DNA of 28,477 bases, from IMG/VR virus record IMGVR_UViG_3300025666_000035, positions 1 through 28,477 of that record. One strand, written 5' to 3'. The notes below the pieces were generated by a model. The model was not told the origin of the DNA. It saw nothing but the letters and a program-made list of their open reading frames with translations, and ran no database searches. Both the position numbers and the translations under genes were made by a program. Of the stretch, positions 4,454-26,102 are shown one piece after another. This DNA is from a virus. The first letter of the stretch is position 1; the number at the start of each line of letters is the position of its first letter.

Positions 4454-4839
4454 ATTACAATATAGTCATTATTGAAACCATCGTATTCTGTATATTGGTC
4501 TTTATTTACTTTATAGAAATAATTGTTATCTGCATCAATTTCTGCTTTTTGTGCAGTACAGAAAATCCTATCCTTATATATTACATTTGTTTTTGCTACA
4601 TCTGAATATATAGTTAAATCATAAAAATGCCCCTCAACTAAATTTGAATAGGTATCATTATATACATTGTAGGTATCGTTTACAATTTCAATATTACCAA
4701 CACCAGCAACTCTAGGTACTAATGTATAATCAACAGTTACATTTGTGCTATCATCTCTAATAGTCATATATGCAGTTGATACATAATCTCTAGGTATTAT
4801 AGTAAATTGATTTGTTGAGGTTGTGTTAAATAATATCAT
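4450..4839 (-). CDS. Small structural protein of unknown function
   Basis: A 129-residue, Asn/Asp/Tyr-rich and probably beta-rich protein starting MILFNTTSTNQFTIIPRDYV. It is the first gene after a strong terminator and has its own late-promoter candidate 3 bp before the ATG. It is coupled to the portal gene by an ATGA overlap. It may be a virion decoration, connector or stopper protein. I recognise no catalytic motif. Its place at the head of the portal-fibre operon suggests a head or neck role (inference). Confidence 0.65.
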   Translation of the reverse strand: MILFNTTSTNQFTIIPRDYVSTAYMTIRDDSTNVTVDYTLVPRVAGVGNIEIVNDTYNVYNDTYSNLVEGHFYDLTIYSDVAKTNVIYKDRIFCTAQKAEIDADNNYFYKVNKDQYTEYDGFNNDYIVI

Positions 4840-4842
4840 TAC

Positions 4843-4873
4843 TTATATAACGTATAAAAAATAGTAATTTGTA
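4843..4873 (-). promoter_or_regulatory. Late-promoter candidate P-late 1
   Basis: The minus strand reads TACAAA (4873-4868), 15 bases, then CGTTATATAA (4852-4843), and the ATG follows 3 bases later. It sits directly downstream of the intrinsic terminator at 4879-4907, which is where a new promoter is needed. The 10-mer is shared exactly with sites at 7081, 15622 and 17799. If TTATAT is the -10 element, transcription would begin at about the A of the ATG. No experimental support exists here. Confidence 0.65.
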
Positions 4874-4878
4874 AAAAC

Positions 4879-4907
4879 AAAAAAAAAGCACCCGATTAAG
4901 GATGCTT
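4879..4907 (-). terminator. Rho-independent terminator after the tail tube gene
   Basis: On the minus strand, AAGCATCC pairs with GGGTGCTT (one G-U wobble) around a 6-nt loop, followed by a run of nine T. It lies 22 bases after the stop of the gene at 4929-5450 and just before the late-promoter candidate at 4843-4873, so it separates two transcription units. Confidence 0.85.
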
Positions 4908-4928
4908 CTAATTTAAAATAAATATTAG

Positions 4929-5450
4929 TTATGCAGTTGGGTCTACTTGTGCTGCATCTCCAGTTACTGCTGCTGCAAGGAAATAAGGTGCAGTTTCTTC
5001 CATACCCTCAAACGTAAGTGTAAATCCACTTAAATCACCCGCTGCTGCTCCAGTTACTACTGTTCCACCAGTACACTCCATACCATTTTCAAAGCCACAT
5101 AAGAAGCTATTACCATAGTAATCTTCTACAACTACATATGGTCTTGCTACTGCAAGTGTTTGTAGTTCTTGTTGCGTTAAAGCATCTAAATAAGTAAGTG
5201 TAAGGTTTAAAGTTTGAGTGTAAAATGTCGTTCCATTTTCTCGGCTACTTGTTACAGTAGTTTCTAAAGATGAATTACCTTTTACATCATATTCATACCA
5301 AGTTGGTGTTCCCGTAAACGCTGCTTCACCAGTTGATGCATCTACTGTGATTGCAGTAAGGTCACCATAATCAGCAAAGAATACTTTTTTTATGCCACCA
5401 AAAGCACTTTTGCAAGGTAGTTTTCTACCCGTTGTTAATGTACAAGCCAT
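4929..5450 (-). CDS. Probable major tail (tube) protein
   Basis: A 173-residue protein starting MACTLTTGRKLPCKSAFGGI, rich in Thr, Ala and Gly and apparently beta-rich. The MACTLTTGR..PCK opening is one I recall from Bacteroidetes siphophage tail tube proteins. It follows the major capsid gene and is framed by intrinsic terminators on both sides (5465-5498 and 4879-4907), which gives it a near-monocistronic context, as expected for an abundant virion protein. No promoter motif is visible in the 14 bases between the upstream hairpin and the ATG, so it probably relies on read-through or RNA processing. Confidence 0.6.
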   Translation of the reverse strand: MACTLTTGRKLPCKSAFGGIKKVFFADYGDLTAITVDASTGEAAFTGTPTWYEYDVKGNSSLETTVTSSRENGTTFYTQTLNLTLTYLDALTQQELQTLAVARPYVVVEDYYGNSFLCGFENGMECTGGTVVTGAAAGDLSGFTLTFEGMEETAPYFLAAAVTGDAAQVDPTA

Positions 5451-5464
5451 TGTTTTTATGTTTT

Positions 5465-5498
5465 AAAAAAAAAGGGTGAGCAGATTACCTACCCACCC
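5465..5498 (-). terminator. Intrinsic terminator-like hairpin between capsid and tail tube genes
   Basis: On the minus strand GGGTGGGTAG pairs with CTGCTCACCC (10 bp including two wobbles) around a 5-nt loop, followed by nine T. It lies 23 bases after the capsid stop and ends only 14 bases before the next ATG. It should end most capsid transcripts, with leak-through feeding the tail tube gene. Alternatively it acts as an RNA-stability or processing hairpin. Confidence 0.85.
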
Positions 5499-5520
5499 CT
5501 TTTATAGATTAATTAATTAA

Positions 5521-6489
5521 TTATGCGTAAGATACTATATCATTAGTTCCAAATTGTACTGCACTTGTAAATCTGACTACCATTCTCACATTGTTGCTAC
5601 CATCCAAATCTGCCATATCTAGTACTTTTACTTCTTGTGCTGAATTTAGTAATCCAGTTCCAAAGTATAAGTTAGAACGTTGTGCTGCATACATTTTGTC
5701 ATCAGACATTCCTGGTGATACAAAGATTTTAACTCCGTTTACCGTTAGGCTTCCGTTGTTCCACCATTGTGTACCCATATTAGCTACACCATTTGCTCCT
5801 AAACCATTTGCTCCAAAACCACCTAGTGCTTGTACATATAGTTTAGCTGCTTTAGTTCCTACATAGATAAATAAATCTTCTTTACCATATAATGCAGATG
5901 GTATTGCATCAACTACTTCAGAAAGTTTGTCAATGATATTTGCAGATGTAAGTGCTACTGATGTTATCGCTTGTGCTGCTGGAATATCTCCAGATGTTAC
6001 TGCTGCTGCAATTAGTTTTTCAAACCCATCAAAAGATGTGTAAGTTGCTCCAGCCACATCTCCTTGCCAAATATTAAATTCTGTTGACTGTGCAATTTCG
6101 CTCGCTACGTGAGCAATCAAGAAATCAGAAAACTTTGGTGGTAATGTTTGACCAAGACCATAACCCATTGATTGTGCTTCCCAATCGTTTACAAAGTCAT
6201 ACTTACATAATTGTAGGTTTACTTGTAGTTCTTTTGGTTCAATAATTCTTTCAGTTAGTGTAACTGTAGATGTTGGTGAAAAATCACAAGATGCAGATGC
6301 CACTAAAGCATTTGTAGCTAGTTTTTTGATTACTTCTTTAAAAGCGATGTTTGCCTTTACTGTTAAACCACCGTCATCAATAGTTGATGCAGATAATAAA
6401 GCTGCTGCGATATACTCACCAGCAAATTCACCCGCATAAGTAGTAGTTATGTTAGTGGTTGTCGCTAAATTTACGTTTCTTCTTTTCAT
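5521..6489 (-). CDS. Major capsid protein
   Basis: A 322-residue protein recognisable as the coat protein by its context (protease, scaffold candidate, then this gene, then a strong terminator) and its sequence. It has a Thr/Ala-rich N-terminus, RIIEPKELQVNLQLCKYDF, the glycine-rich NGSLTVNGVKIFVSPGMSDD segment, and a C-terminus ending MVVRFTSAVQFGTNDIVSYA, as in HK97-like coats of Bacteroidetes phages. It would assemble the icosahedral shell. One base separates it from the upstream gene, so the two are probably co-translated. No long delta domain is seen, in line with a separate scaffold. Confidence 0.8.
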   Translation of the reverse strand: MKRRNVNLATTTNITTTYAGEFAGEYIAAALLSASTIDDGGLTVKANIAFKEVIKKLATNALVASASCDFSPTSTVTLTERIIEPKELQVNLQLCKYDFVNDWEAQSMGYGLGQTLPPKFSDFLIAHVASEIAQSTEFNIWQGDVAGATYTSFDGFEKLIAAAVTSGDIPAAQAITSVALTSANIIDKLSEVVDAIPSALYGKEDLFIYVGTKAAKLYVQALGGFGANGLGANGVANMGTQWWNNGSLTVNGVKIFVSPGMSDDKMYAAQRSNLYFGTGLLNSAQEVKVLDMADLDGSNNVRMVVRFTSAVQFGTNDIVSYA

Positions 6490-6490
6490 T

Positions 6491-7075
6491 TTATTTATTT
6501 AATTTGTTTAATACTCTATCTAGTGTTGTGTTGAATTGTCCTTTAGCAAATTGCATTTGTTTTTTCTGTGGTGCTTTTGCTTCTGGGTTGTGTTTAATTG
6601 GTTTTCTAGCTGCTGAAAGTTCTTCTTTCTTTTCTTCTTCTTTCACATCCATATCTGAAAATTTCTTTTTCAGCATTTCAATTTCTTCTTTTACTTCTTC
6701 AATAACTGGTGCAATAACCTCAACTACTGCTTCAATAATTGCTTCAACTTCTGTAGCAACCTCTGCTGGTACTTCTGTTTCAACAGTTTCTTCTTCAAGA
6801 TCCTCTGTTTCTTCTTTAGCTGGTACTTCATCAGATACTTCTCTGACATCTGCAATCATACCCTCTTCAGATACTACAACTAATCTACCATCTTCAAGGA
6901 TATACTCCCCTACTGGCATTGCTACTTTCTCATCGTCTGTGACAATAAAGATTTCACTTCCTTTCTCAAATGTTTCAGCACTTACTACAGTACCGTTTTC
7001 CAACTTCATTTCTTCAAGTTTTACCTCGATGTTTAAAAGTGTTCTAATTTGATTTAACATTTTTGTTTTTTCCAT
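6491..7075 (-). CDS. Candidate scaffold / capsid assembly protein
   Basis: A 194-residue protein. The N-terminal half (about 1-80) is compact, with EEMKLENGTVVSAETFEKGS and the repeated GEYILEDGRLVVV pattern. The middle (about 83-150) is extremely Glu/Val-rich and coiled-coil-like. The C-terminus is basic (ARKPIKHNPEAKAPQKKQMQ). An acidic helical rod with a basic capsid-binding tail, immediately upstream of the major capsid gene, is typical of a scaffolding protein. It contains ADVREVSDE, close to VDVREVSDQ in the portal. It has its own late-promoter candidate at 7081-7111. The role is inferred from architecture and position. Confidence 0.55.
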   Translation of the reverse strand: MEKTKMLNQIRTLLNIEVKLEEMKLENGTVVSAETFEKGSEIFIVTDDEKVAMPVGEYILEDGRLVVVSEEGMIADVREVSDEVPAKEETEDLEEETVETEVPAEVATEVEAIIEAVVEVIAPVIEEVKEEIEMLKKKFSDMDVKEEEKKEELSAARKPIKHNPEAKAPQKKQMQFAKGQFNTTLDRVLNKLNK

Positions 7076-7080
7076 ACTAT

Positions 7081-7111
7081 TTATATAACGATTATTAATT
7101 TACTTTTTGCA
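7081..7111 (-). promoter_or_regulatory. Late-promoter candidate P-late 2
   Basis: The minus strand has TGCAAA (7111-7106), 15 bases, then CGTTATATAA (7090-7081), with the ATG of the scaffold candidate 5 bases downstream. The longer string AAATGCAAAA is identical to that at P-late 3 and lies at the same distance. It would boost scaffold and capsid transcription within the head operon. Confidence 0.6.
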
Positions 7112-7114
7112 TTT

Positions 7115-7276
7115 TCAATCTGTTCTTGTTATTACACCAATACCTTGTGCTTGCATAGAACCATCACAACAAGAGATAGAATACTTGTTGGTGTCCCAAC
7201 ATAAACAAGCACGACCACCCCCAGTAGGTGATGTTCTACTAGGAATAAAAGTTTTATTTTTGTTGTTTCTTTGCAT
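7115..7276 (-). CDS. Small Cys-rich protein in the capsid region
   Basis: A 53-residue protein (MQRNNKNKTFIPSRTSPTGG...) with the cluster CLCWDTNKYSISCCDG followed by MQAQGIG. The CLC..CCDGS..AQGIG pattern is one I recall from small conserved proteins near the capsid genes of Bacteroidetes phages. The four Cys suggest a metal-binding knuckle or virion cross-link. It starts 3 bases after the upstream stop, and its stop lies just before the promoter candidate at 7081-7111. The function is unknown. Confidence 0.7.
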   Translation of the reverse strand: MQRNNKNKTFIPSRTSPTGGGRACLCWDTNKYSISCCDGSMQAQGIGVITRTD

Positions 7277-7279
7277 TTA

Positions 7280-7714
7280 TTAGAAATATATATTTTCTTC
7301 TAAATCTCTAGTTATATTAGCTATCACTAGTTCACCAATTAAACTATCTGCTTTTATATAATTAGAAATAGTTTCGGGATTAATACCTAATTCATTAGCT
7401 GCATTTTTTGCGTTATCCAAAAGACTTTCAACTCTATTAAATATATCATTATTTTTATTTAGAATTTCTTGACCTTTTTGTTCTAATTCATCTCTAGTAG
7501 CTTCCATTTCTTGAATTTGTTTTACTAGTTCGTTTTGTTTCTTATTAAATTCAATTACTGAATTTTCAAATTCTTCATCAGAAACAAGAGATTTTTCTAT
7601 TTCAGAAATTTCGTCACCTAAATCATCAGCTACACCTAGTGCTACCTTTTGTGCTTTAAGGTTTACTTTTTGGTTTGGTAGTTTGCTATAAACTTTTTCT
7701 AATCTACTTTTCAT
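7280..7714 (-). CDS. Coiled-coil protein, paralogue of the next gene upstream
   Basis: A 144-residue, Glu/Lys/Asn-rich, almost wholly helical protein. Its N-terminus MKSRLEKVYSKLPNQKV is nearly the same as that of its neighbour at 7716-8105 (MKSNIEKVYSKLPNKKQ). Both share a central coiled coil and a late motif with A-ELG--P (NAANELGINPETI here). The pair looks like a tandem duplication within the head operon between the protease and the scaffold candidate. Possible roles are scaffold accessory, protease substrate or internal head protein. I know no enzymatic family for it. Confidence 0.65.
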   Translation of the reverse strand: MKSRLEKVYSKLPNQKVNLKAQKVALGVADDLGDEISEIEKSLVSDEEFENSVIEFNKKQNELVKQIQEMEATRDELEQKGQEILNKNNDIFNRVESLLDNAKNAANELGINPETISNYIKADSLIGELVIANITRDLEENIYF

Positions 7715-7715
7715 T

Positions 7716-8105
7716 TTATATTTGGTTTAATTTTGAATTTGCTTCATTTATTTTTTCCATAGCTTCATCATAAATATCAAAAGAATTTTCATATTGATTT
7801 AATTCGCTAGGTTCTACGCCTAATTCATTTGCTAATTCACTTGCTTGTAATAATTTTGCATCTAATTTTCTTGCTTCATCTGTTAAATCTTGCAAGTCTA
7901 CTTCTAAACTATTTTTAAAACTATTAAATTCATTTTGTATTCTTTCAAGTTCTTCAATGTCAATTTCAATATTTTTTGAAAATACACTAACAGATGACGC
8001 GATACTTGTTAATTCAGAAACTACGTTTAATTTTACATTATGTTTTTTAAAGCTTTGCTTTTTGTTTGGTAGTTTAGAGTATACCTTTTCTATGTTACTT
8101 TTCAT
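7716..8105 (-). CDS. Coiled-coil protein, paralogue of the gene at 7280-7714
   Basis: A 129-residue helical protein starting MKSNIEKVYSKLPNKKQ with a long heptad-like middle and SELANELGVEPSELNQYE near the C-terminus. One base separates its stop from the next start, and its own start overlaps the protease stop as ATGA. The similarity to its neighbour (MKS--EKVYSKLPN-K and ANELG--P) indicates duplication and divergence. It probably acts in head assembly, but this is inferred from position only. Confidence 0.65.
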   Translation of the reverse strand: MKSNIEKVYSKLPNKKQSFKKHNVKLNVVSELTSIASSVSVFSKNIEIDIEELERIQNEFNSFKNSLEVDLQDLTDEARKLDAKLLQASELANELGVEPSELNQYENSFDIYDEAMEKINEANSKLNQI

Positions 8106-8686
8106 TTTACTATGTCTTTTATTTGGTTTAATAATTGTTCAGCCATTTGTTCTTCTATAGCTTCTTTTGGTGCTTCCATTTTATCCGCAAAGTAACCCTC
8201 GATAGAAAAACCTTTTACTTTGTTTGTCTTTACATACTCATTCCAAACATCTTCATTATTGACCTTGACTGATCCCATCCACGTTCCAACTGGTACGTCT
8301 AAACCATACAATGCAGTCTTGTCTTTGGCTTTATCTTCTACTATCCAGCTTTCAACTAATGTTAAACCATTAAGTGCTTGTGCGTGTTCTAGTGTTGATC
8401 TACTTTGGTTTCCATTCTGTAAGAACATTTGAGATGCTTTTACAATAGTATCTTTTGAAAAGAATATGTAATACTCACCCTCTGAACCATTTCTGTATAT
8501 AGGCTTGTCTGGTATTAATAAAGCACCCATTAATATCTTCTTTTCTTTGTCTACTTCTGCTAACTTTATCTCTTGGTTCTTTAATGCAACAAAGTCACTT
8601 TCAATGGCTGGGCTTTCTACGATTGAAATCGCTTCTACTCCAGCATCCAAATCTTCTTCATCTAAAATAAGTTCTATTATCCTCAT
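8102..8686 (-). CDS. XkdF-like phage serine protease (prohead protease candidate)
   Basis: A 194-residue protein matching the XkdF / Peptidase S78-2 pattern. It starts with LILDEEDLDAGVEAISIVESPAIESDF, then MGALLIPDKPIYR, EYYIFFSKDTI, a His in TLEHA (His101), and VPVGTWMGSVKV, with a Ser in GFSIEGYF (Ser161). His101 and Ser161 are the likely catalytic pair. Such proteases mature prohead proteins before DNA packaging. The gene heads the head module and is preceded by a late-promoter candidate 2 bases before its ATG. Confident in the family; proteolysis itself is inferred. Confidence 0.8.
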   Translation of the reverse strand: MRIIELILDEEDLDAGVEAISIVESPAIESDFVALKNQEIKLAEVDKEKKILMGALLIPDKPIYRNGSEGEYYIFFSKDTIVKASQMFLQNGNQSRSTLEHAQALNGLTLVESWIVEDKAKDKTALYGLDVPVGTWMGSVKVNNEDVWNEYVKTNKVKGFSIEGYFADKMEAPKEAIEEQMAEQLLNQIKDIVK

Positions 8687-8688
8687 AA

Positions 8689-8719
8689 ATATATAACGTG
8701 TTTAGTTTTTAATTTTGCA
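8689..8719 (-). promoter_or_regulatory. Late-promoter candidate P-late 3
   Basis: The minus strand has TGCAAA (8719-8714), 15 bases, then CGTTATATAT (8698-8689, 9 of 10 matches), and the ATG of the protease gene 2 bases later. The upstream string AAATGCAAAA matches P-late 2 exactly at the same spacing. It is located between the tape measure stop and the first head gene. Confidence 0.6.
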
Positions 8720-8720
8720 T

Positions 8721-10442
8721 TTAGCCTATACTAGCACCCTCAATAATGTTTCTATCCATTTCTTGTGCTGTTGTTACATCATTACTTACAACGTATGCCC
8801 TTGCTGGTCTTTGTGTTTGACTACCTATTGCATCTGCTAATTGTGTTTCACCACTTGCACCTACTACATTAAATGCTGGTGCTTGTGATCCACCACCCGC
8901 ACCAGATGCTGGGTTTGTTCCACCTCTAGCATTACTAGGTGATGTTTTTAATATATCTTTTACAGATTTAAAACCAATAGCAGCAGTTGTAGCTATGTTT
9001 GCTATTTTTAAACCAAATTCAAAAGGTGTAACAGTCTTTGTTGCAAGTTCAGCAGTAATACCTTGATATGTATTTATTAATGCAGCAGCAGCAGCAGCAG
9101 CTTTACTGGCAGCACTCTGTTCATCAAACAAAGTTGATATATCACCAAGTGTATTTTTTGCCATATCTAACTGTGCATTTCTTTTTATAGCCTCATCTTT
9201 TTCTTCTTCTTCTTTGTTTTTCTTTACAACCCCAGCAATTTGATTTTCATAGTATGCTGCTATTCTAGCTTTTTCTATCCAAGTTGCCTCTAGTAAATCT
9301 AGTTCTGCAAGTGCTGCTGCTTTTTCTCTTTCTAGTTTTTGTATTTCAGAAAATTCTGTTGCATCATTTACTATTTTTTGTATATCTTCTAATCTCTTTT
9401 TTTCTTTATCTATTGCTTCTTGATCAATTTTATCTTGCTTTGCTTTATCTTGTTCTGCAAATATTGCTTTTTGTTCATCTTCAGCCTTTTTTTGTGCTGC
9501 TTTTAATTCTAATATTTTTATTGAATTTGTACCATAAAATTTTGCTGCTAATTCTATTTGTTCAGTATAATCTTCATTTATTAATCTTAATTTTTCTGCA
9601 CGTTCTTCTGCTTCTGTATCAATTAAACCTTTGCGTATTCTTTCAATAGCTTCAATTCTAGCTTTTTCTGCTGCTTCTGCATCTGCTGCACTTGTATCTT
9701 TATCTTTAGGTTTAGTTTTTTTTGGATCTTCAATTAAACTACTTTCAAATTGTGTGTATTTGTTTTCTAAATCACTTAATATTTGTCTTTGTTTTATTAA
9801 AGCTTCATTTTCTTCTTCTGTTATTTCACTAATTCCTTTTTTACCTTGTCTTATTCTTTCAGCAATAGTTAACGTTTCAGTTTCTATTTCTAATTTTCTT
9901 AAAGCACTTTTTTCATCTTCAATAGATTTTAATAAAGTATCTCTTTTTTCTTTAATTAAAGCCTTTTCTTTTTCTATTAAAGCATCAACATTTTTACCTT
10001 GTTTTTTTTCTAGTTCTATTTGGCTTTTTAAATTTCTTAATTTTAAATCAACTGCATCTAAATTCTGATTGTTTAAAACTATTTGCTTTTCAAGTTCTTT
10101 ATTTGTATCACTTACAAAATCAACAATGGCATCCCAATGCTCAACCAATAAACCAACTGCAACAACCGCTGCACCAATACCACTTGATATTAATGCAGTT
10201 TTCATAGCCTTACCACTTAACTTTGCAGCCTTACCAACCGCAACCAATTTAGATGCAAGACCACCAGTCATTTGGTCTAACTTACCTAATACAGCACCAC
10301 CAACTTGTTGCATACCAGATAATTCTTTACTAGCTTTTTTTGTAGTCTTTGCAGTTTTCTTTACTGCATCATCAACCTTATTTACACTAGCAACTGCATC
10401 ATCTGTTTTAGCAACTAATTGAACCTCTACTACTTTTGCCAT
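8721..10442 (-). CDS. Tail tape measure protein
   Basis: A 573-residue protein. The N-terminal 60 residues are rich in Lys, Ala and Val. A glycine-rich hydrophobic segment (about 75-100, ALISSGIGAAVVAVGLLVEH) is followed by a long charged coiled coil (about 115-425), an Ala-rich patch and a Gly-rich linker. The end, PARAYVVSNDVTTAQEMD, matches the C-terminal signature of Bacteroidetes phage tape measures as I recall it. Length sets tail length. At about 1.5 angstrom per residue this implies a short tail near 85 nm (inference). It overlaps the 47-residue ORF upstream by 13 bases. Unusually for a siphophage it is separated from the tail chaperone gene by several others. Confidence 0.8.
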   Translation of the reverse strand: MAKVVEVQLVAKTDDAVASVNKVDDAVKKTAKTTKKASKELSGMQQVGGAVLGKLDQMTGGLASKLVAVGKAAKLSGKAMKTALISSGIGAAVVAVGLLVEHWDAIVDFVSDTNKELEKQIVLNNQNLDAVDLKLRNLKSQIELEKKQGKNVDALIEKEKALIKEKRDTLLKSIEDEKSALRKLEIETETLTIAERIRQGKKGISEITEEENEALIKQRQILSDLENKYTQFESSLIEDPKKTKPKDKDTSAADAEAAEKARIEAIERIRKGLIDTEAEERAEKLRLINEDYTEQIELAAKFYGTNSIKILELKAAQKKAEDEQKAIFAEQDKAKQDKIDQEAIDKEKKRLEDIQKIVNDATEFSEIQKLEREKAAALAELDLLEATWIEKARIAAYYENQIAGVVKKNKEEEEKDEAIKRNAQLDMAKNTLGDISTLFDEQSAASKAAAAAAALINTYQGITAELATKTVTPFEFGLKIANIATTAAIGFKSVKDILKTSPSNARGGTNPASGAGGGSQAPAFNVVGASGETQLADAIGSQTQRPARAYVVSNDVTTAQEMDRNIIEGASIG

Positions 10443-10573
10443 TTTAAATCTCTTTTAATTTGATTGTAACCCTCTTTTAATGTTTCCGCTAATTTATATT
10501 TTCCTTGTGCTATTCTTATGTTTTCAGTATCAGCCTCAACAACTTGTAGCAAGTCTATTATATTCTTAATCAT
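10430..10573 (-). CDS. Small helical protein before the tape measure gene
   Basis: A 47-residue ORF (MIKNIIDLLQVVEADTENIR..., ending KRDLKWQK) that starts with an ATGA overlap on the preceding gene and ends 13 bases inside the tape measure gene. It fills the only gap in this part of the operon and is helical and amphipathic. It may be a tail chaperone-type helper or a small tail protein. No family is recognised. The double overlap supports it as real. Confidence 0.6.
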   Translation of the reverse strand: MIKNIIDLLQVVEADTENIRIAQGKYKLAETLKEGYNQIKRDLKWQK

Positions 10574-12732
10574 AATATTGTGTTTAGTAATTCAAATTCT
10601 GTTTTACCAGTTGTTAGATCTGTTTTCATTGAATTAATCTTGTAGCTATCTTGTCCTAATTCTATCAAGTCATTTAATTCCAGATCATAATAAACTTTCA
10701 TAGGTAGATAAGCAGTAACCTTAACTAATCTTCTTTTTGCATTAAATACATCTTGTATATAAGTCTTGTATTTAGTTTCAAATAAAGTATCTGTAAAGCA
10801 AGTTGGGTTACCGGTTTCTCCTATTGTATATTCATTATACTCATTTTTAAAATGTATGTTTACTTTACTTGTAGCACAATCTAAAGCTAAACTGTTTGAT
10901 GGTATAAAATATCTTGTTATATCATCTTCATCAGTAGTATCTTCATCTCTAATCCTCATTGAAGTACCGTTATTAAGGATAGGATAAAAAAGTAAAGGCT
11001 CTCCATAATAAGGTTCAAAATTATCATCTACAAAATACCCATATTGAATTGTGGTTAAACCTATATTAGCAGCAGTGGGATTTATATCAATTATTCTTTG
11101 ATATTGCATATGCTCAAAAGGCAGTTCAACTTTATAGGTTTCTGTTGGAGCATCAAATCTTGTGTTATCTCTGTAACTTTCAGAACCCCATCCGGAATTC
11201 CAAATCTGTTCAAATTGTTTCGCAAGTAAAGTACCTAATCCTTTATATCTAAAATTAATTTCTTTAAAAGGTAACGCAACATCCACCTTTGATGTTTTAG
11301 TATCTAAATATTTATCTATGTTAATTGGTGTTTGTGAACCCGCTGCATAATAACTGTCTAATGTTCTAACTACTATAATACCTACATCATTAACAAAAGC
11401 AGTTAAGTTAAACATCTTAAACATTCCAGATAGAAAGTCTATGATTTTTATTTTAGGTATCTGTTGTGTAATGTTAAATTCAAATACAGCACTTGTTTCA
11501 AATGTTACAGCATTGCTATATTCAATTCCACCATCTAATTCAAAAAAATCTTCATCTCTTTCTTGAAATTCAACAACCCATTTAATGCCACCGGCAGCAA
11601 ATTGTAAAAGTACCTCTGACCTAATCTCTATAGTATAAACTCCATTAGCTAGTTGTTCTTCATCTATAATTGTTGTTAAACCACTAGCGCCTATCTCTAT
11701 TTCTAAATAACCATTTGGTCCCGTAACCCTTACATCATAAGGTATTGCTGGAGTAGAAAATACTGGATTTAAAATTAAAGATACTTGTGGTGAGTCTAAA
11801 GAATAAGCATTCCCAGGATTCAAATTAATTTCTAATTGACCATTCTCCATCTCTGATAGTTGGGTCATTCCCCCATAATCTCCGGTTGGTGTTTCATCTC
11901 CCAACTCTGTTACTAATGTCCATTCTGCATCACCAAAACTAGGTGTTTCTACATTTCCTTTTTTTCTATGTAACCATAAAAATAATTCGTCAAATTCATC
12001 ATTGGTAGCATCATTAAAAAAATCATTTGAAAATACAATATCTGAACCATATCCATTCGCTACTGTATATTTTGTTTCTATTGCATCAATTATAGCTTGT
12101 ACTCTTAATGCGTATTTAAACTGCTTCCAATCAACACCATTTTGTTGTTGTGTGCCAGATCCGTGTGGATATATATTGTTTGTTGTAGCCTCTGGGTCAA
12201 AAGTTGAGTGTGAATTACTATTGTATATTAATCTGTTTGTATGTGTAATTAAAGGCACAACTATGTTATTGTTTCCGCTTGGGAAACCTTGTATTGTATC
12301 TCTTATATTTGCATAATTATATACTTGTGAGTTATCATCTAATGCAGCTAAACTACTCAACAAATCATCACCCAGAACATCTTTAAGGTTCACTGTATTA
12401 CCAAAGAAAGTAATGTGATATGTATGAGCTACATTGTTTTTTAAATCAACACTATTAAGCTTTATTTTACCATTCTTAAAAGGTAAATCATTTAACTCTA
12501 ATCTTGCATCAGCTTTATTTCTTGCATCAAAGCCAAAGTCAATATCAAAATTATAATAGTGCTGAAATATCTTATTATTAACTCTAGAAGCCGGAACCGC
12601 AAATGTTTGTGTAAACTCGGTAAAGACCTTTGCAATATCTTTTACATTTTGAATAGTCTGCGTAAGCGATACACTTTCATCTTTAAACAAGTCTACTCTT
12701 TCAGTACCGATATATAATTGTAGTCTACGCAT
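10570..12732 (-). CDS. Large tail / baseplate-like structural protein
   Basis: A 720-residue protein starting MRRLQLYIGTERVDLFKDES. It contains FTEFTQTFAVPASRVNNKIF near residues 38-57, a pattern I associate with large tail proteins of Bacteroidetes phages and prophages. The rest is rich in Asn, Thr, Asp and beta segments. It may be a hub, baseplate or distal-tail component; no enzymatic motif (for example a lysozyme) is apparent. It abuts the upstream gene with no gap, and its stop overlaps the 47-residue ORF. The function is inferred from size and place next to the tape measure gene. Confidence 0.6.
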   Translation of the reverse strand: MRRLQLYIGTERVDLFKDESVSLTQTIQNVKDIAKVFTEFTQTFAVPASRVNNKIFQHYYNFDIDFGFDARNKADARLELNDLPFKNGKIKLNSVDLKNNVAHTYHITFFGNTVNLKDVLGDDLLSSLAALDDNSQVYNYANIRDTIQGFPSGNNNIVVPLITHTNRLIYNSNSHSTFDPEATTNNIYPHGSGTQQQNGVDWKQFKYALRVQAIIDAIETKYTVANGYGSDIVFSNDFFNDATNDEFDELFLWLHRKKGNVETPSFGDAEWTLVTELGDETPTGDYGGMTQLSEMENGQLEINLNPGNAYSLDSPQVSLILNPVFSTPAIPYDVRVTGPNGYLEIEIGASGLTTIIDEEQLANGVYTIEIRSEVLLQFAAGGIKWVVEFQERDEDFFELDGGIEYSNAVTFETSAVFEFNITQQIPKIKIIDFLSGMFKMFNLTAFVNDVGIIVVRTLDSYYAAGSQTPINIDKYLDTKTSKVDVALPFKEINFRYKGLGTLLAKQFEQIWNSGWGSESYRDNTRFDAPTETYKVELPFEHMQYQRIIDINPTAANIGLTTIQYGYFVDDNFEPYYGEPLLFYPILNNGTSMRIRDEDTTDEDDITRYFIPSNSLALDCATSKVNIHFKNEYNEYTIGETGNPTCFTDTLFETKYKTYIQDVFNAKRRLVKVTAYLPMKVYYDLELNDLIELGQDSYKINSMKTDLTTGKTEFELLNTIL

Positions 12733-13737
12733 TTATCTAATGTTGTTTATGTAATCAAAAGCTTCTTCAAACTCCATACTATATTCTATTAGCCTATCAT
12801 TTACACTTGTTTTAAAGGCTACTGATGATGTTTTAACCTTTACCGGTATGATTATACCAGATCCTTTTCTCACAGTAGATAGCCAAACGTATTCACTTAA
12901 TAGCAATTCTTCAAATTGTTGGTTTGCAAACTCCGGATAATATCCGCTACTTAATTTATGTGTTTGTTTAGCTTGTGTATTGAATACTTTGTTTGGTGCA
13001 TTCTGTACTGAATAGGTAGCGCTTGAACCACTTGGATAGGTTATTGTATTTGATTTGTAACCCTCATTAGATCTGGATAGGTTTTTAGAATTCTTTAAAA
13101 AGAACCATAAATCTTGTTGTGCGCCATACTTGTTTATGTATATAATTCTTTTACCATCACCATACTTTGTGCAATCAATTCTTTTAATATTACATACAAC
13201 ACCATCAACATTTGTTACACTTGTATCTGTACTCGTATAAGGTGTTACAACCAAACCATTCAAAGCAGTTATGCTTGGTAATTTACCCGCAGTATTATTT
13301 GGTGCAAATATTGTAAAGGTATCTGTATCTTCATTTATAGGTATTAAGTAAGTAGGTGTAGTTCTTCCAAAAGGCACGGTTGGATTTACTTCTTCTTCAA
13401 ATGTTCCATAGGCTTCAAAGCCAACATCTGTAATTGTTGCCGGTTCATCTATCACAGTACCAAGCCCATTTATTGCATTATAACTCTTTAGGTTTGTTTC
13501 TATATCAACAGTCTGTGGCACATAACTACTTTGGTAAGTTATCTCTATGTAATCCCTTGCAAGTTCTGCAATATCAAAATTAACTGTTTGAGTTGCCACT
13601 AAAGATAAAGGCAAATTCTTTGTTAGTGTATATCTTAAAGTTCCATCAATAGTAACCTTGCACACAACAGACCTTGCTCCGGCACTTGCTACTATAAATT
13701 TAAACTGTGGGTTTCTTAATGCTAATTGTAATGCCAT
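12733..13737 (-). CDS. Tail-associated structural protein, unknown role
   Basis: A 334-residue, beta-rich protein starting MALQLALRNPQFKFIVASAG. It has FDIAELARDYIEITY near residue 55 and a Ser/Thr-rich middle. A conserved-looking block reads KYGAQQDLWFFLKNSK, followed by LLSEYVWLSTVRKGSG and a C-terminal domain that reads like a beta-barrel lid. It is directly upstream of the 720-residue tail protein with no spacing, so the two probably act together, for example as distal tail proteins. I recall relatives in flavobacterial phages without known function. Confidence 0.6.
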   Translation of the reverse strand: MALQLALRNPQFKFIVASAGARSVVCKVTIDGTLRYTLTKNLPLSLVATQTVNFDIAELARDYIEITYQSSYVPQTVDIETNLKSYNAINGLGTVIDEPATITDVGFEAYGTFEEEVNPTVPFGRTTPTYLIPINEDTDTFTIFAPNNTAGKLPSITALNGLVVTPYTSTDTSVTNVDGVVCNIKRIDCTKYGDGKRIIYINKYGAQQDLWFFLKNSKNLSRSNEGYKSNTITYPSGSSATYSVQNAPNKVFNTQAKQTHKLSSGYYPEFANQQFEELLLSEYVWLSTVRKGSGIIIPVKVKTSSVAFKTSVNDRLIEYSMEFEEAFDYINNIR

Positions 13738-13738
13738 C

Positions 13739-13882
13739 TTAAAAGTCTAGTGTTAGTGTTGCTATAAATAAATAGAACCTTATTGTTGTGTATGTATATC
13801 TTTCATCTCTTGCGATGTACTCCCAACCTAACATAAATCTGTTATGTGGGAAATGAAATGCTATGCCTAATGTCCAATCCAT
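13739..13882 (-). CDS. Small conserved-looking protein in the tail module
   Basis: A 47-residue ORF beginning MDWTLGIAFHFPHNRFMLGW and ending FYLFIATLTLDF. The pattern of His/Pro/Arg followed by GWEYI and a hydrophobic beta-like tail is one I recall from small proteins of Bacteroidetes mobile elements. It sits in the gap between the neck-like protein and the 334-residue tail protein, leaving 1 and 3 bases on the two sides. The hydrophobic C-terminus could be a membrane hairpin or beta strand. The function is unknown. Confidence 0.65.
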   Translation of the reverse strand: MDWTLGIAFHFPHNRFMLGWEYIARDERYTYTTIRFYLFIATLTLDF

Positions 13883-13885
13883 ATC

Positions 13886-14416
13886 TTATTTTTTTGTTCC
13901 TAGTATAATTGCGTTTTCTATATCTAGTGAAAAAGCATCTGTTAATTGTTTTGGTAAGTTCTGTAAACCTAGTTCAAATGGTGTAGTAAAGAATAAGTTT
14001 GCTTTTAAACCTTTGTTGTAAATTGATCTTGATATTAAATAAGTCATTGTATCATAACTCATAAATTTACCTTTTTTATCTCTCCATTGAAACCTTTTCT
14101 TTTCTAACCAACCTTTAATACCATCTCTTAAACCATACTTTGGAAAATTACCACTACCATATTGAAATTGTGATAGTGATGCAGCAGTTTCTGGGTAGGT
14201 TGAGGTTTTACCCCTTACACCTTTATCTACAAAAGTTCCATAATCTTCCATTAGAAAATCTAACAAAAACAGATCTTGGCTTTTTTCATATTTGTAGCTA
14301 ACTGATTTATATAAATCACCTAAACTTTTTCTTTCATCTACTAGGTTTTTCTTTGCACTATCTACTACATATTCAGCATAAGCATTTAAAACCTCATCTA
14401 CATTTTTAAAGTCCAT
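13886..14416 (-). CDS. HK97 gp10-like neck / tail-completion protein
   Basis: A 176-residue protein from the ATG at 14416, which overlaps the upstream stop as TAATG. An earlier TTG at 14422 is less likely. The central DYGTFVDKGVRGKTSTYPE and the helical N-terminus resemble HK97 gp10-type head-tail joining proteins, which attach the tail tube to the connector. LRDGIKGWLEKKRFQWRDKK is a basic stretch near the middle. Its position between tail-terminator-like and tail proteins fits. Moderately confident on fold, less on exact role. Confidence 0.55.
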   Translation of the reverse strand: MDFKNVDEVLNAYAEYVVDSAKKNLVDERKSLGDLYKSVSYKYEKSQDLFLLDFLMEDYGTFVDKGVRGKTSTYPETAASLSQFQYGSGNFPKYGLRDGIKGWLEKKRFQWRDKKGKFMSYDTMTYLISRSIYNKGLKANLFFTTPFELGLQNLPKQLTDAFSLDIENAIILGTKK

Positions 14417-14886
14417 TAACAAATGTATATATCATTGTAAATTAGTATAGTCATTGTAGCACTCCATCCAGCAAGTTGATTTTCAAACCTATCATTAAAT
14501 GGTGTTAAACTTGGATTGCCATCTAGTTGATACATATCTGTATGTAATGATCCCATTCTTAACTTCTGTATTAGCTTGTTTAAGACTAGTAGCTGTGTGT
14601 TTAGAATATCTTGTTCATTATCATTGCCAGTAAATCTATCTGTTGTTATATCCTTTGATTGGTCTACAATATCACAAGCTAGTATACTTATGTTAAACCT
14701 CAACACTTGTTCTTCTGCTGAAACACTATTTACAATCATATGTGCTAATGGAAATATGTCTTGCTTGTTTAGGTTTACTTTGCTTATGTCACCAATAGAA
14801 ACTGTATTAGTAAATTCAGTACCTCTTAATTGTTCTTCTATTGTTGAGGTTAATTGATAATACCCTCTTATACCTTGTTGGCTCAT
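14416..14886 (-). CDS. Probable tail terminator / completion protein
   Basis: A 156-residue protein starting MSQQGIRGYYQLTSTIEEQL. It contains IFPLAHMIVNSVSAEEQVLRF, ILACDIVDQSK and NEQDILNTQLLVLNKLIQKL, then a Trp-containing beta end (LAGWSATMTILI). This pattern is typical, as I recall, of a tail-completion protein in Bacteroidetes siphophages. Its ATG overlaps the stop of the -1 frame of the upstream frameshift gene (ATGA), supporting translation of that frame. The role is inferred. Confidence 0.55.
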   Translation of the reverse strand: MSQQGIRGYYQLTSTIEEQLRGTEFTNTVSIGDISKVNLNKQDIFPLAHMIVNSVSAEEQVLRFNISILACDIVDQSKDITTDRFTGNDNEQDILNTQLLVLNKLIQKLRMGSLHTDMYQLDGNPSLTPFNDRFENQLAGWSATMTILIYNDIYIC

Positions 14887-15137
14887 TTGAAATTTTGTTT
14901 AATTCTTTTGGCTTCTACTTCTGCTTTGTCTTTCATAAAGGATAGCATCATAAAACATTCGTGTACTCCTAGTTTAGTGATATTTTCATATCTTGTAATG
15001 TCTCCTTGAGCAAGTCCGTAAATTGAGTTATACCAGCCCCATTTGGTTGTGAAGTTAGATACTGCGTCAAGGCTTGTGTTTGATCCTTGTCCAAATAATT
15101 CATCATAGTTTTCGACAAGTCCAGACCTAAATTCCAC
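14883..15137 (-). CDS. -1 frame extension of the tail assembly chaperone (expressed by frameshift)
   Basis: An 84-codon frame with no good start of its own; its first possible initiator, GTG at 15137, lies immediately after the T10 run. It encodes NFTTKWGWYNSIYGLAQGDI and ITKLGVHECFMMLSF, segments that look like a genuine conserved domain. A -1 slip in the run joins it to the zero frame and would give a product of about 245 residues. Its stop overlaps the next gene's start as ATGA, unlike the zero-frame stop at 14969. I infer a gpGT-type extended chaperone. Confidence 0.65.
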   Translation of the reverse strand: MEFRSGLVENYDELFGQGSNTSLDAVSNFTTKWGWYNSIYGLAQGDITRYENITKLGVHECFMMLSFMKDKAEVEAKRIKQNFK

Positions 15138-15619
15138 AAAAAAAAAATTGATGACAAGACTGCATCCATAGGCATATCTAAAATCTCTTGATCTACACCT
15201 ACTTTGTATTCTTCTATTGTGTATTTGTCTTTTATTTTGTTTACTACTGGTCTATATAAAACTGCCATAGCTTTTTCTATATTTTCCCAGTCACCAATAA
15301 AGGTATCTAAATCTATATACTCACCTAATGTTAAATCATCTAGTTGTGGATGAAACCCATAGTTAATATTGTTTAGCTTAAAACTTCTAACTAGGTTAGG
15401 CTTCTGCTCAAACATTTCTGTAAGTGTACTTACTATTAGTTCACTATCATTAAACTTCAACCTCATTACATCTTCAAGGTTTAACTTGCAAAATATTTCA
15501 ATGATCTTTGCATTTAAAAAACTCTCATCATCTACATTTTTCTGTATTTTAAGAAAGTGCTTATACTGCCTTAAAGTAATTTCACTTAAATCATTTGGTA
15601 CTGTAATATTGATATTCAT
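14969..15619 (-). CDS. Tail assembly chaperone candidate, zero-frame product
   Basis: A 216-residue protein starting MNINITVPNDLSEITLRQYK, mainly helical with no membrane segment. At codons 158-161 the zero frame crosses a run of ten T. The zero frame continues for about 56 codons that overlap the -1 frame, and both frames look like plausible protein. Two overlapping products from a slippery site are characteristic of the lambda gpG/gpGT tail chaperones, which bind the tape measure protein. Unlike in lambda, the tape measure gene is not adjacent. The gene begins a transcription unit (promoter candidate 15622-15652). Confidence 0.65.
   Translation of the reverse strand: MNINITVPNDLSEITLRQYKHFLKIQKNVDDESFLNAKIIEIFCKLNLEDVMRLKFNDSELIVSTLTEMFEQKPNLVRSFKLNNINYGFHPQLDDLTLGEYIDLDTFIGDWENIEKAMAVLYRPVVNKIKDKYTIEEYKVGVDQEILDMPMDAVLSSIFFLWNLGLDLSKTMMNYLDKDQTQALTQYLTSQPNGAGITQFTDLLKETLQDMKISLN
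15138..15148 (-). promoter_or_regulatory. Programmed -1 frameshift slippery run
   Basis: On the minus strand the zero frame reads ATT TTT TTT TTG across ten consecutive T, containing the perfect heptamer T TTT TTT. A -1 slip moves ribosomes from the frame ending at 14969 into the frame ending at 14883. A 6-bp complementarity (CTTGTC with GACAAG, 15119-15114 and 15091-15086) begins 18 bases downstream and may be a weak stimulator. Transcriptional slippage on the long run is an alternative mechanism. Confidence 0.65.
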
Positions 15620-15621
15620 AC

Positions 15622-15652
15622 TTATATAACGTTTTTAAAATGGTTTTTTATA
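15622..15652 (-). promoter_or_regulatory. Late-promoter candidate P-late 4
   Basis: The minus strand has TATAAA (15652-15647), 15 bases, then CGTTATATAA (15631-15622), with the ATG of the frameshift gene 2 bases later. It directly follows the terminator at 15669-15698, so it would restart transcription for the tail operon. Confidence 0.65.
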
Positions 15653-15668
15653 GTAAGGTAAATATAAT

Positions 15669-15698
15669 AAAAAAAGGTACACCATTTCTGATGCACCT
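15669..15698 (-). terminator. Rho-independent terminator ending the terminase operon
   Basis: On the minus strand AGGTGCATCA pairs fully with TGGTGTACCT (10 bp with two wobbles) around a GAAA tetraloop, followed by seven T. It lies 21 bases after the stop of the gene at 15720-15833. Confidence 0.9.
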
Positions 15699-15719
15699 CT
15701 TAAACAAAACTCAACTTAA

Positions 15720-15833
15720 CTAAATCATACTTGCTTCGTGGCAAGTGCCACTACACACACCGGGCTTTTCTATTTCTGCACCACATTCTGTGCATTCATA
15801 TTCTTTGTATTCTGGGGGGCTATACCAATCCAT
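15720..15833 (-). CDS. Small zinc-ribbon-like protein
   Basis: A 37-residue ORF with YECTECGAEIEKPGVCSGTC, a CxxC and a C-x3-C pair that could bind one zinc ion. It overlaps the preceding gene by 14 bases and is followed by the terminator at 15669-15698. Similar tiny ECTECG proteins occur in Bacteroidetes phages as far as I recall. It might bind nucleic acid or a protein partner, but the function is unknown. Confidence 0.65.
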   Translation of the reverse strand: MDWYSPPEYKEYECTECGAEIEKPGVCSGTCHEASMI

Positions 15834-15954
15834 AATATTCTGTTTTTAATTTACCATTACGGTAATGTTCTACAATTACACCAGTTGATAAAGGTACTAC
15901 CTTGTATGGTCTGATGCTTTTCTTTACTAAAAATCTGTTTATTAATTTTTTCAT
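15820..15954 (-). CDS. Small basic protein, unknown
   Basis: A 44-residue ORF starting MKKLINRFLVKKSIRPYKVV, with a basic N-terminus and a likely short beta C-terminus (GVIVEHYRNGKLKTEYYG). Its ATG overlaps the upstream stop by one base and its end overlaps the next gene by 14 bases, so it fits the coupled small-gene cluster after the terminase. No family is recognised. Confidence 0.55.
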   Translation of the reverse strand: MKKLINRFLVKKSIRPYKVVPLSTGVIVEHYRNGKLKTEYYGLV

Positions 15955-16052
15955 TATTCTTCTATTTCGTTAAATACTGCGTGTTCTAAACAATCACCAC
16001 ATATTTCATCACTTAAATAAGATGCTTCTGCACCACAACAATTACTATACAT
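15954..16052 (-). CDS. Tiny Cys-rich knuckle protein
   Basis: A 32-residue ORF, MYSNCCGAEASYLSDEICGD and so on, with a CC pair and CGDC (CxxC), a plausible zinc knuckle. The stop overlaps the next ATG (TAATG). It is the first of three coupled microgenes between the 16064 gene and the terminator. Related CCGA...CxxC microproteins appear in many phages. The function is unknown. Confidence 0.55.
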   Translation of the reverse strand: MYSNCCGAEASYLSDEICGDCLEHAVFNEIEE

Positions 16053-16063
16053 ATTCTTTTGTT

Positions 16064-16234
16064 TTATAGTTCGTAAACTTTTTTATAAACCTCTTGTGTG
16101 TTTTTAACCGCTTTGTTATAACCTACACTAAATGCTTCTGATGCTAGGTTACTCATAATGGTTAGTAGTTCAGAGTTATACTCTATGTCTAATCCTCTTA
16201 ATTTGTCGTATGCGTTTTCTAATGGTGTTTTCAT
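16064..16234 (-). CDS. Small hypothetical protein downstream of the terminase
   Basis: A 56-residue helical protein from the ATG at 16234 (MKTPLENAYDKLRGLDIEYN). An upstream in-frame extension to 16288 is less likely because it would run through an A/T-rich palindrome and encode a Cys/Phe-rich stretch. The start is preceded by AACAGAT, also seen before the gene at 17931-18140, which has the similar opening MQTPKEKAYQL. The two may be distant relatives. The function is unknown. Confidence 0.6.
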   Translation of the reverse strand: MKTPLENAYDKLRGLDIEYNSELLTIMSNLASEAFSVGYNKAVKNTQEVYKKVYEL

Positions 16235-16252
16235 ATCTGTTTTGTTAGTTAA

Positions 16253-16266
16253 TATATTGCAATATA
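16253..16266. promoter_or_regulatory. 14-bp perfect palindrome, possible operator
   Basis: TATATTGCAATATA reads the same on both strands and lies in the 69-base gap between the large terminase stop and the ATG at 16234. Next to it on the minus strand is an A/T-rich TTTATTTG, which resembles but does not fully match a host -7 element. A dimeric repressor site is one explanation. Confidence 0.35.
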
Positions 16267-16303
16267 CAAATAAATAACATACCAACAAATAATTTAATAA
16301 CTT

Positions 16304-17512
16304 TTATGATATAAAGTAATTACCCCTATTTGGATTTTGTAGTTGATATGATACAGAATATCTGATTGCATCTATAATATGGTTGAATTTGTCTTGTGGT
16401 GTTTTAGACTTTTTTTCTAACCAGGAGTAGTTGTTTAGTTCTTTGATTAAGTTTATACTGTTTTCTTCTACAATCAAATCATAATCTTGTAGTAATGCTA
16501 TACCATAGGTAATTGAGCCTTGACCTTTTATTGCTTTGACTACATTACAACCTTTTGCTTTCAGTTCGTGTAGTAATCTTGGTTCAGCACTATCACCTAC
16601 TATAAGATGGTTTTTAGCGTGTTTAAGGTTTAGTTCAGCTATTTGTGATGTGGTAAGACCTTTCAAGTAAAAGCATTCCTTTAAATAGATTATCTTGTTG
16701 TTTGTATCTATGTTAGTTTCCACCAAACTGTTCTCGTCTGCGGCAAATCCATAATCTTGACCAAAGACACTTACACCTACTTTTTTAAACTCACCTATTT
16801 TCCAATTAGTAAATATAACACCCTCTGCTTTTGCCAACCAACCACCAAGCATCTGATGTTTGTATTTCTCTGGTCTGCGTTTCTTTATGTTTTCTATTTG
16901 CTCTAAATAGCTTTTAGATAGGTTTTCTATATTATCTAAATATGTAGTGTGTATGTAGGTTGTATTTCCTTTGGTTGTGTTTGTACCAGCTTGTACACCT
17001 TTATCTTCAAAGAACCTATTATATATCCAATGCTCTTTTGTAACTGGGTTTAAAATAAGTATTACCCTATTCTTTTGTTTGAGGTTTCTTACACTTAAAT
17101 CTATCTTATCAAATATGTTTTCATCTTGCAGTTCTTCTGCTTCATCCATTACCCACGTAGAAACGTTAGTTAAAGACTTTAGGTTAGCCGTTTGATCACC
17201 GCTTGATGTCTTGATACCTTTGAAGATTATCTTGCTACCAGATAGCTTATTTCGTATTTCATCTTTTGTTATATAAAATACGTGTTGTAGGTTTAGTGTT
17301 TCTATCTTATGTATAAACTCGGGTATAATAGAAATGTATGCAGATGATAATGTAAACCTAGTAAACAAGATTGTATGCCCAGCTTCAAAAGTGAGCAACA
17401 ACAAAAGTAAGTTTATAGAATACGATTTACCAGAACCACGACCACCAGTTACAATATAATATCTTGCATCTGATGTTTGGATAGGGTTATACTTTGGGTC
17501 AACTTCTATCAC
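16304..17512 (-). CDS. terL: Terminase large subunit (PBSX-like family)
   Basis: A 402-residue DNA-packaging motor. The ATPase domain has Walker A GGRGSGKS at 23-30 and Walker B VMDEAEE at 121-127. The nuclease domain has candidate acidic residues in GQDYGFAADE (Asp253), VGDSAEPR (Asp307) and HIIDAIRYS (Asp381). The size and motifs match phage PBSX-type large terminases that cut concatemers and translocate DNA through the portal. The start overlaps the small subunit stop as ATGA. The residues seen appear complete, so it is probably active. Confidence 0.92.
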   Translation of the reverse strand: MIEVDPKYNPIQTSDARYYIVTGGRGSGKSYSINLLLLLLTFEAGHTILFTRFTLSSAYISIIPEFIHKIETLNLQHVFYITKDEIRNKLSGSKIIFKGIKTSSGDQTANLKSLTNVSTWVMDEAEELQDENIFDKIDLSVRNLKQKNRVILILNPVTKEHWIYNRFFEDKGVQAGTNTTKGNTTYIHTTYLDNIENLSKSYLEQIENIKKRRPEKYKHQMLGGWLAKAEGVIFTNWKIGEFKKVGVSVFGQDYGFAADENSLVETNIDTNNKIIYLKECFYLKGLTTSQIAELNLKHAKNHLIVGDSAEPRLLHELKAKGCNVVKAIKGQGSITYGIALLQDYDLIVEENSINLIKELNNYSWLEKKSKTPQDKFNHIIDAIRYSVSYQLQNPNRGNYFIS

Positions 17513-17775
17513 TTAAATTTTATAATATCTTTAAAGTTAATATTGAAACCATCTGTAGATGTTATATCTACACTCTCTTTAGGCTTACCATATCTGTAAC
17601 CAAAGTACAATGACATAGCACGGCTATCACCTTTTAAGATCTGTTTGCCAAGTGTTTTAATTACCTCATCATTATCAATAAGGTTATCTAACTTTTCAAT
17701 TAGTTTAAGTTCGTCTGCTTTCTTTGGTCTACCAGCACCCTCTCTTGCACCACCGTTATTTTTTCTTTTATCCAT
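17509..17775 (-). CDS. terS: Terminase small subunit candidate
   Basis: An 88-residue protein with the opening NNGGAREGAGRPKKADELKL, a hallmark N-terminus of phage small terminase-type proteins, followed by helices (LIEKLDNLIDNDEVIKTLGK and GDSRAMSLYFGYRYGKPKE). It would recognise packaging DNA. It overlaps terL by 4 bases (ATGA) and has a late-promoter candidate 23 bases upstream, so it starts the packaging operon. Confidence 0.75.
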   Translation of the reverse strand: MDKRKNNGGAREGAGRPKKADELKLIEKLDNLIDNDEVIKTLGKQILKGDSRAMSLYFGYRYGKPKESVDITSTDGFNINFKDIIKFK

Positions 17776-17798
17776 TTGAAATAAATTTGTTTATTCAA

Positions 17799-17829
17799 TT
17801 ATATAACGTAATTACTCAACGTTTTTATT
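17799..17829 (-). promoter_or_regulatory. Late-promoter candidate P-late 5
   Basis: The minus strand has AATAAA (17829-17824), 15 bases, then CGTTATATAA (17808-17799). The ATG of the terminase small subunit is 23 bases further. The upstream hexamer is the weakest of the five. It overlaps the end of the gene at 17812-17934. Confidence 0.55.
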
Positions 17830-21955: not shown

Positions 21956-22095
21956 CTTTCAATTTTTATTTCGTTTAACTTTTTTCTTCTGTTGTTACAA
22001 TTACATTTAGTACCTCTTAACTTGTGGTATTTATCTACCAGGTATTTAATACCAGTATACTTTGTGATGTAATAAATAATGTTTCCTATTTTCAT
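21949..22095 (-). CDS. Small Cys-pair phage protein
   Basis: A 48-residue ORF, MKIGNIIYYITKYTGIKYLV and so on, with KCNCNNRRKKLN near the C-terminus. The pattern of a short helix with TGIK..V..Y followed by CxC..R...LN is one I recall from small proteins in Bacteroidetes phages. The start overlaps the sigma-like gene as ATGA. The function is unknown. It may bind nucleic acid through its basic end. Confidence 0.65.
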   Translation of the reverse strand: MKIGNIIYYITKYTGIKYLVDKYHKLRGTKCNCNNRRKKLNEIKIERW

Positions 22096-26074: not shown

Positions 26075-26102
26075 CAAATATAAACAAAATATTTAATAAC
26101 AA
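26075..26102 (-). promoter_or_regulatory. Host-type (Bacteroidetes) promoter candidate for the replication operon
   Basis: On the minus strand TTG (26102-26100), 17 bases, then TATATTTG (26082-26075). This fits the flavobacterial TTG-N17-23-TAnnTTTG consensus. It follows the terminator at 26115-26143 and precedes the ATG at 26048 by 26 bases, so it can drive the recombination/replication genes from 26048 leftward. Confidence 0.65.

Follow-up and report, generated by a model that had tools for sequence, protein, structure and literature searches.

Five sites on the minus strand of the window (the whole stretch of DNA analysed, a virus contig of 28.5 kb) are likely to be late promoters, read by the host core RNA polymerase together with a phage-encoded sigma factor of the ECF type. 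The window derives from a marine Bacteroidota phage in which the minus strand encodes nearly all genes, the early ones on the right and the late ones on the left. The nearest named relatives are the Nonlabens phages P12024S and P12024L (TerL 55%, portal 34%). Each site is followed by a head, tail or packaging gene, and the operons headed by the five comprise terS-terL, the tail genes, the protease, a scaffold-like gene plus capsid, and the portal. The likely recogniser, an ECF sigma factor encoded at 22092-22568, had been missed by the earlier note, which was made from the sequence alone. The features are as follows.

4843..4852, minus: -10 element of putative promoter 1, CGTTATATAA; ATG of 4450-4839 is 13 nt after the C; predicted leader 1 nt
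4868..4873, minus: -35-like element of putative promoter 1, TACAAA
4884..4909, minus: intrinsic terminator directly upstream of putative promoter 1
4450..4839, minus: first gene of the promoter 1 operon; precedes the portal gene (2654-4453), in the place of P12024S gp5
7081..7090, minus: -10 element of putative promoter 2, CGTTATATAA; ATG of 6491-7075 at +15 from the C; predicted leader 3 nt
7106..7111, minus: -35-like element of putative promoter 2, TGCAAA
6491..7075, minus: scaffold-like gene (function inferred from its position), followed by the probable major capsid gene (5521-6489)
8689..8698, minus: -10 element of putative promoter 3, CGTTATATAT; ATG of 8102-8686 at +12; predicted leader 0
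8714..8719, minus: -35-like element of putative promoter 3, TGCAAA
8102..8686, minus: prohead protease (Peptidase_S78_2)
15622..15631, minus: -10 element of putative promoter 4, CGTTATATAA; ATG of 14969-15619 at +12; predicted leader 0
15647..15652, minus: -35-like element of putative promoter 4, TATAAA
15672..15701, minus: intrinsic terminator directly upstream of putative promoter 4
14969..15619, minus: first gene of the tail operon (phrog_32199)
17799..17808, minus: -10 element of putative promoter 5, CGTTATATAA; terS ATG at +33; predicted leader ~21 nt
17824..17829, minus: -35-like element of putative promoter 5, AATAAA
17509..17775, minus: small terminase gene terS, followed by terL (16304-17512)
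22092..22568, minus: phage sigma factor of predicted ECF-type fold, 158 aa; sigma2 ~1-81, linker 81-95, sigma4 ~96-158
26075..26082, minus: -7 element TATATTTG of host type, ahead of the early/middle region; consensus from PMC6847099

The putative late promoter sites

The 10-mer CGTTATATAA is found exactly on the minus strand at 4843, 7081, 15622 and 17799, and a fifth copy at 8689, CGTTATATAT, matches it at nine of ten positions; these five copies had been claimed in the earlier note, and all positions were confirmed. Its further claims held as to the hexamers exactly 15 bp upstream of every copy (TACAAA, TGCAAA, TGCAAA, TATAAA and AATAAA), the placement before virion or packaging genes only with none before early genes, and the intrinsic terminators directly upstream of two sites (15701-15672 and 4909-4884). 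The distance from TTATAT to the ATG, given as 5-8 bases at four sites, held in part, the actual values being 4, 4, 5 and 7 bases. The proposed form TRYAAA-N17-TTATAT was refined: CGTTATAT describes the -10 element better, accompanied by an A-rich -35 element at fixed spacing (AAA-N15-CGTTATAT in the clade of the window), and what stays invariant is CGTT plus TATAT, a -10 of the ECF type, rather than TTATAT alone. That the module is a bipartite promoter, as was claimed, is supported by conservation, absence before early genes and ECF geometry; its activity is inferred.

With one mismatch allowed, the 10-mer CGTTATATAA occurs eight times in the window against 3.5 expected, which is not significant alone; the evidence therefore rests on how the elements are combined and placed and on their conservation. 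When the bipartite pattern was searched loosely, with two mismatches allowed, only noise resulted (68 vs 62), and the search was replaced by an out-of-sample weight matrix of 35 positions, trained on 29 sites from relatives only, in contigs whose sigma factor is at most ~80% identical to that of the window. This matrix ranks exactly the five late sites first in the window (24.8, 24.0, 23.0, 20.5 and 18.9 bits); the sixth-best match has 6.6 bits. No match in 100 dinucleotide shuffles reached 18.9 bits, the best having 17.1. The scores are partly high by construction, because sites entered the training set by having CGTTATA before ATG; AAA at the fixed spacing was not part of that selection. The early half of the window contains none of the five sites.

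The minus strand has host-type TAnnTTTG elements at 26082, 25864, 26758 and 28181, and at none of the five late sites. The sigma-ABfr host promoter (TTTG, TAHHTTTG) was accordingly rejected for the late sites, with 0/5 matching and the elements occurring in the early region. The sigma70 promoter TTGACA/TATAAT (16-18 bp spacing) did not fit either, and matches to a sigma70-type consensus in the region were fewer than in shuffles (48 vs 73).

Between the protease and scaffold genes, 7280-7714 and 7716-8105 encode proteins that start alike (MKS..EKVYSKLPN.K), which points to a tandem duplication.

The phage sigma factor and the predicted starts

The ORF at 22092-22568 is unannotated, and its PHROG, phrog_31712, is of unknown function. 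It aligns with gp33 of P12024S, which Pfam assigns to Sigma70_r2; this domain was matched in 15 of the 19 family members (best 1.3e-8), and Pfam returned no Sigma70_r2 match for the window's own copy. A PDB profile search gave ECF sigma chains (best E 9e-4). The AF2 model (pLDDT 83) consists of helical domains at residues 1-80 and 99-157 with a low-confidence stretch at 81-95, and its low pTM of 0.49 is due to the loose linker. The best rows of a Foldseek search with the model were ECF sigmas. Superposed alone, the sigma2 domain fits SigR/RpoE at 2.2-2.4 A (2.2-2.8 A across matches) and the sigma4 domain fits sigmaE region 4 bound to the -35 element at 1.8 A. The architecture of ECF (group IV) factors, sigma2 plus sigma4 with a flexible linker and without sigma1.1 or sigma3, is met. 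By its model-predicted fold the protein is a two-domain ECF-type sigma factor; its binding to core RNA polymerase and its promoter specificity are inferred, without biochemistry. No anti-sigma factor was recognised among the neighbours of the gene, which were looked at in passing. Among named phages, tblastn with the sigmas of the window and P12024S gave no match outside the Nonlabens phages, and the window sigma as query found nothing.

In sigmaH the -10 element is G-11 T-10 T-9, the -35 element GGAACA and the spacer 17 bp (PMC6411747). Applied to the window, this geometry makes the C position -12, and +1 is therefore expected 12 nt downstream of it. The predicted +1 is the A of the ATG at 8689 and 15622, with predicted leaders of 1 nt at 4843 and 3 nt at 7081. 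The exception is terS, predicted to be not leaderless with a leader of ~21 nt, in agreement with the ~20 bases claimed before. The -35 AAAACA of P12024S has the same register as that of sigmaH, and in the window clade the distance between A-tract and -10 is ~2 bp shorter than that of characterised ECF promoters. A GTT/CGT-type -10, an A-rich/AAC -35 and rigid spacing satisfy the criterion for an ECF-type promoter. In 49 distinct tail-gene sequences the ATG is invariant and codon-position constraint starts at the ATG. Most transcripts of F. johnsoniae carry a leader (longer than 10 nt in 87%, mean 33), and its genes favour A at -3, a positive determinant in leadered host genes (PMC6847099); position -3 is variable at the phage late sites. 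The leaderless starts claimed in the earlier note are supported by the ECF geometry (C-12 G-11 T-10 T-9) and remain an inference, no transcript ends being available; what is inferred, without transcript data, is a 5' end at the AUG or a few nt from it at four sites.

In the terS leader (17776-17798) and its relatives a changing inverted repeat follows the -10, with a third half-site near the ATG (e.g. TTGATTAATCAA...TTCAA and TTAGTTAACTAA...CTAA). The mean arm is 5.7 vs 5.0 in shuffles; the repeat may be an operator or a TerS site.

Conservation and variation among relatives

A sigma homologue is located near terL in dozens of related contigs, and a scan of genome contigs yielded only two relatives. 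In about 150 related IMG/VR contigs, many of them near-identical, 216 of 234 occurrences of CGTTATAT lie within 60 nt upstream of an ORF-opening ATG. Seven genes of P12024S have the related module AAAACA-N17-GTTAATA, ending just before the ATG; in its clade AAAAC stands at -22 to -18 with CGTTA at 0, and 15 of the 20 non-redundant sites have the ATG at +12 from the C. The module also stands before the same orthologous late genes in contigs whose sigmas are more distant. The number of CGTTA[AT] occurrences 9-17 nt before an ATG was 5 in the window (0.12 expected), 6 in P12024S (0.41 expected), 13 in L153-157 (0.8 expected) and 15 in 18 loci with a sigma 50-65% identical (1.7 expected). Five Bacteroidota phages without the sigma, RAP44, Harreka_1, phi14:2 (first 50 kb only), P12002L and phi17:1, together had 1 vs 1.6 expected.

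Among TerL relatives of the P12024S type the CGTTA scan found almost none, though many carry a sigma homologue upstream, because the -10 varies from clade to clade. The variant CTATTATATA lies before starts in 35 of 40 cases vs 1.5 expected, and other sigma-bearing contigs have GTTTATA, TATTATATA or AGTTATATA at the same place. These patterns were picked after viewing the sequences, so that the counts are descriptive and not tests. Promoter sequence and sigma change together at constant promoter-to-ATG distance; the covariation is seen at the level of clades only, and common descent is therefore not separated from co-evolution. In contigs of the RAP44 type the sigma is absent in 22 of 23, and the box is absent too. 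Some sigma-bearing loci have no clear module before every expected gene, e.g. the tail gene of L263.

Four further observations were made. L325 has a RAP44-type TerL with a sigma homologue, unlike the other 22. CGTTATATTA occurs 27 nt before a 151-aa ORF at L007:2565 and at 11 other loci, and could be one more copy of the promoter or a site of host type. L225 (CAJQLJ010000094.1), a contig in the bin of a Campylobacterales MAG, has genes for the phage sigma and for a TerS-like protein and is probably a phage contig inside that bin. OQ791282.1, 'Shigella phage Henu10', has a match whose coordinates and identity equal those of Riemerella phage PT15, and its host label seems doubtful.

Proposed mechanism, rival explanations and known systems

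In the proposed mechanism, host sigma-ABfr RNA polymerase would transcribe the early region, sigma gene included, from TAnnTTTG promoters. The phage sigma would then guide the host core polymerase to the A-rich(-35)-N15-CGTTATAT(-10) sites at the head of the operons for packaging, tail, protease, scaffold/capsid and portal. Four of the five promoters would be fused to the start codon, with +1 falling 0-3 nt before the A of the ATG; translation of the first cistron would therefore proceed on an mRNA with no leader or almost none, and terS would retain its leader of ~21 nt. Promoter function, recognition by the sigma, late timing and the exact 5' ends are inferred, in the absence of transcript or protein-DNA data.

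The first rival accepts the late promoters and has them read by an alternative ECF sigma of the host or a modified host holoenzyme, the phage protein acting elsewhere or as a cofactor. Hosts of the Bacteroidota carry many ECF sigmas, and no binding data tie the phage protein to the sites. This is nevertheless unlikely, given the homologue near terL in dozens of contigs (vs only two relatives in the genome-contig scan), promoter variants that track the sigma clades, and the lack of the module in phages without the sigma. A similarly doubtful rival places the start further up- or downstream, giving ordinary short leaders; the mostly leadered transcripts of F. johnsoniae (PMC6847099) and the leader of terS speak for it. 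Against it, the ATG typically follows the C of CGTT by 12 nt across unrelated spacers, the published ECF geometry puts +1 at the ATG where codon constraint begins, and the base at -3 varies, whereas in leadered host genes A-3 acts as a positive determinant.

Far less tenable is a translation-initiation or A/T-rich compositional signal without promoter function. Upstream regions in Bacteroidota are A-rich, and A-rich 6-mers are enriched before all starts; however, CGTT is specific and does not precede internal late cistrons, the copy at terS is 33-40 nt from the ATG, the -35 A-tract has fixed spacing, two copies follow terminators, and the control phages lack the box. Chance recurrence of an AT-rich 10-mer, for which the one-mismatch count of 8 vs 3.5 might be cited, is practically ruled out by the matrix shuffle test and the conservation across relatives.

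Late promoters read with the phage sigma remain the preferred reading. A bolder version, which the evidence favours by a small margin, is that a widespread group of Bacteroidota phages uses its own ECF sigma with start-codon-fused promoters to make leaderless first late cistrons, the promoter drifting with the sigma at a held promoter-to-ATG geometry, in hosts that use mainly leadered mRNAs. The proposal offers a late-transcription mechanism for an abundant, little-studied marine phage group, a function for the unannotated family phrog_31712, and diverged pairs of sigma and promoter, provided by nature, from which ECF specificity can be read. Should the mRNAs prove leaderless, translation without a leader could also be tested directly in a phylum that does without Shine-Dalgarno pairing.

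An incomplete search of the open-access literature found no description of the promoters of this sigma family. Among known systems, phiEco32 and 7-11 resemble the proposed system in having their own distant sigma70-family factor, with host promoters for early and phage promoters for structural genes (PMC4331800). Their late/middle motif TAATGTATA (PMC4331800) is a single extended -10-like box in phiEco32, whereas the window phage has a fixed -35/-10 pair, belongs to another host phylum and has putative promoters abutting start codons. T4 late promoters (TATAAATA, gp55) have an AT-rich box near +1 and a phage sigma for virion genes. They resemble the system proposed for the window in both respects, but they lack a -35 and need gp33 and the clamp; in the window the -35 is conserved and the sigma retains region 4. 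Bacteroidota sigma-ABfr promoters (TTTG/TAHHTTTG, PMC6847099) belong to the same kind of host and are present in the early regions here, but the late module does not match them and host transcripts are mostly leadered. ECF promoters (M. tuberculosis sigmaH GGAACA-N17-GTT, PMC6411747; B. subtilis SigW) share with the system proposed for the window GTT at -11 to -9, an A-rich/AAC -35, rigid spacing and a two-domain sigma; AAAACA-N17-GTT of P12024S has the register of the sigmaH sequence. Unlike those systems, the window sigma is phage-encoded and would serve virion genes, and the -10 is extended by TATAT. A phage-encoded sigma for structural genes is already known (phiEco32, 7-11; PMC4331800); new, within the literature searched, are the putative bipartite ECF promoters fused to start codons and their clade-wise drift.
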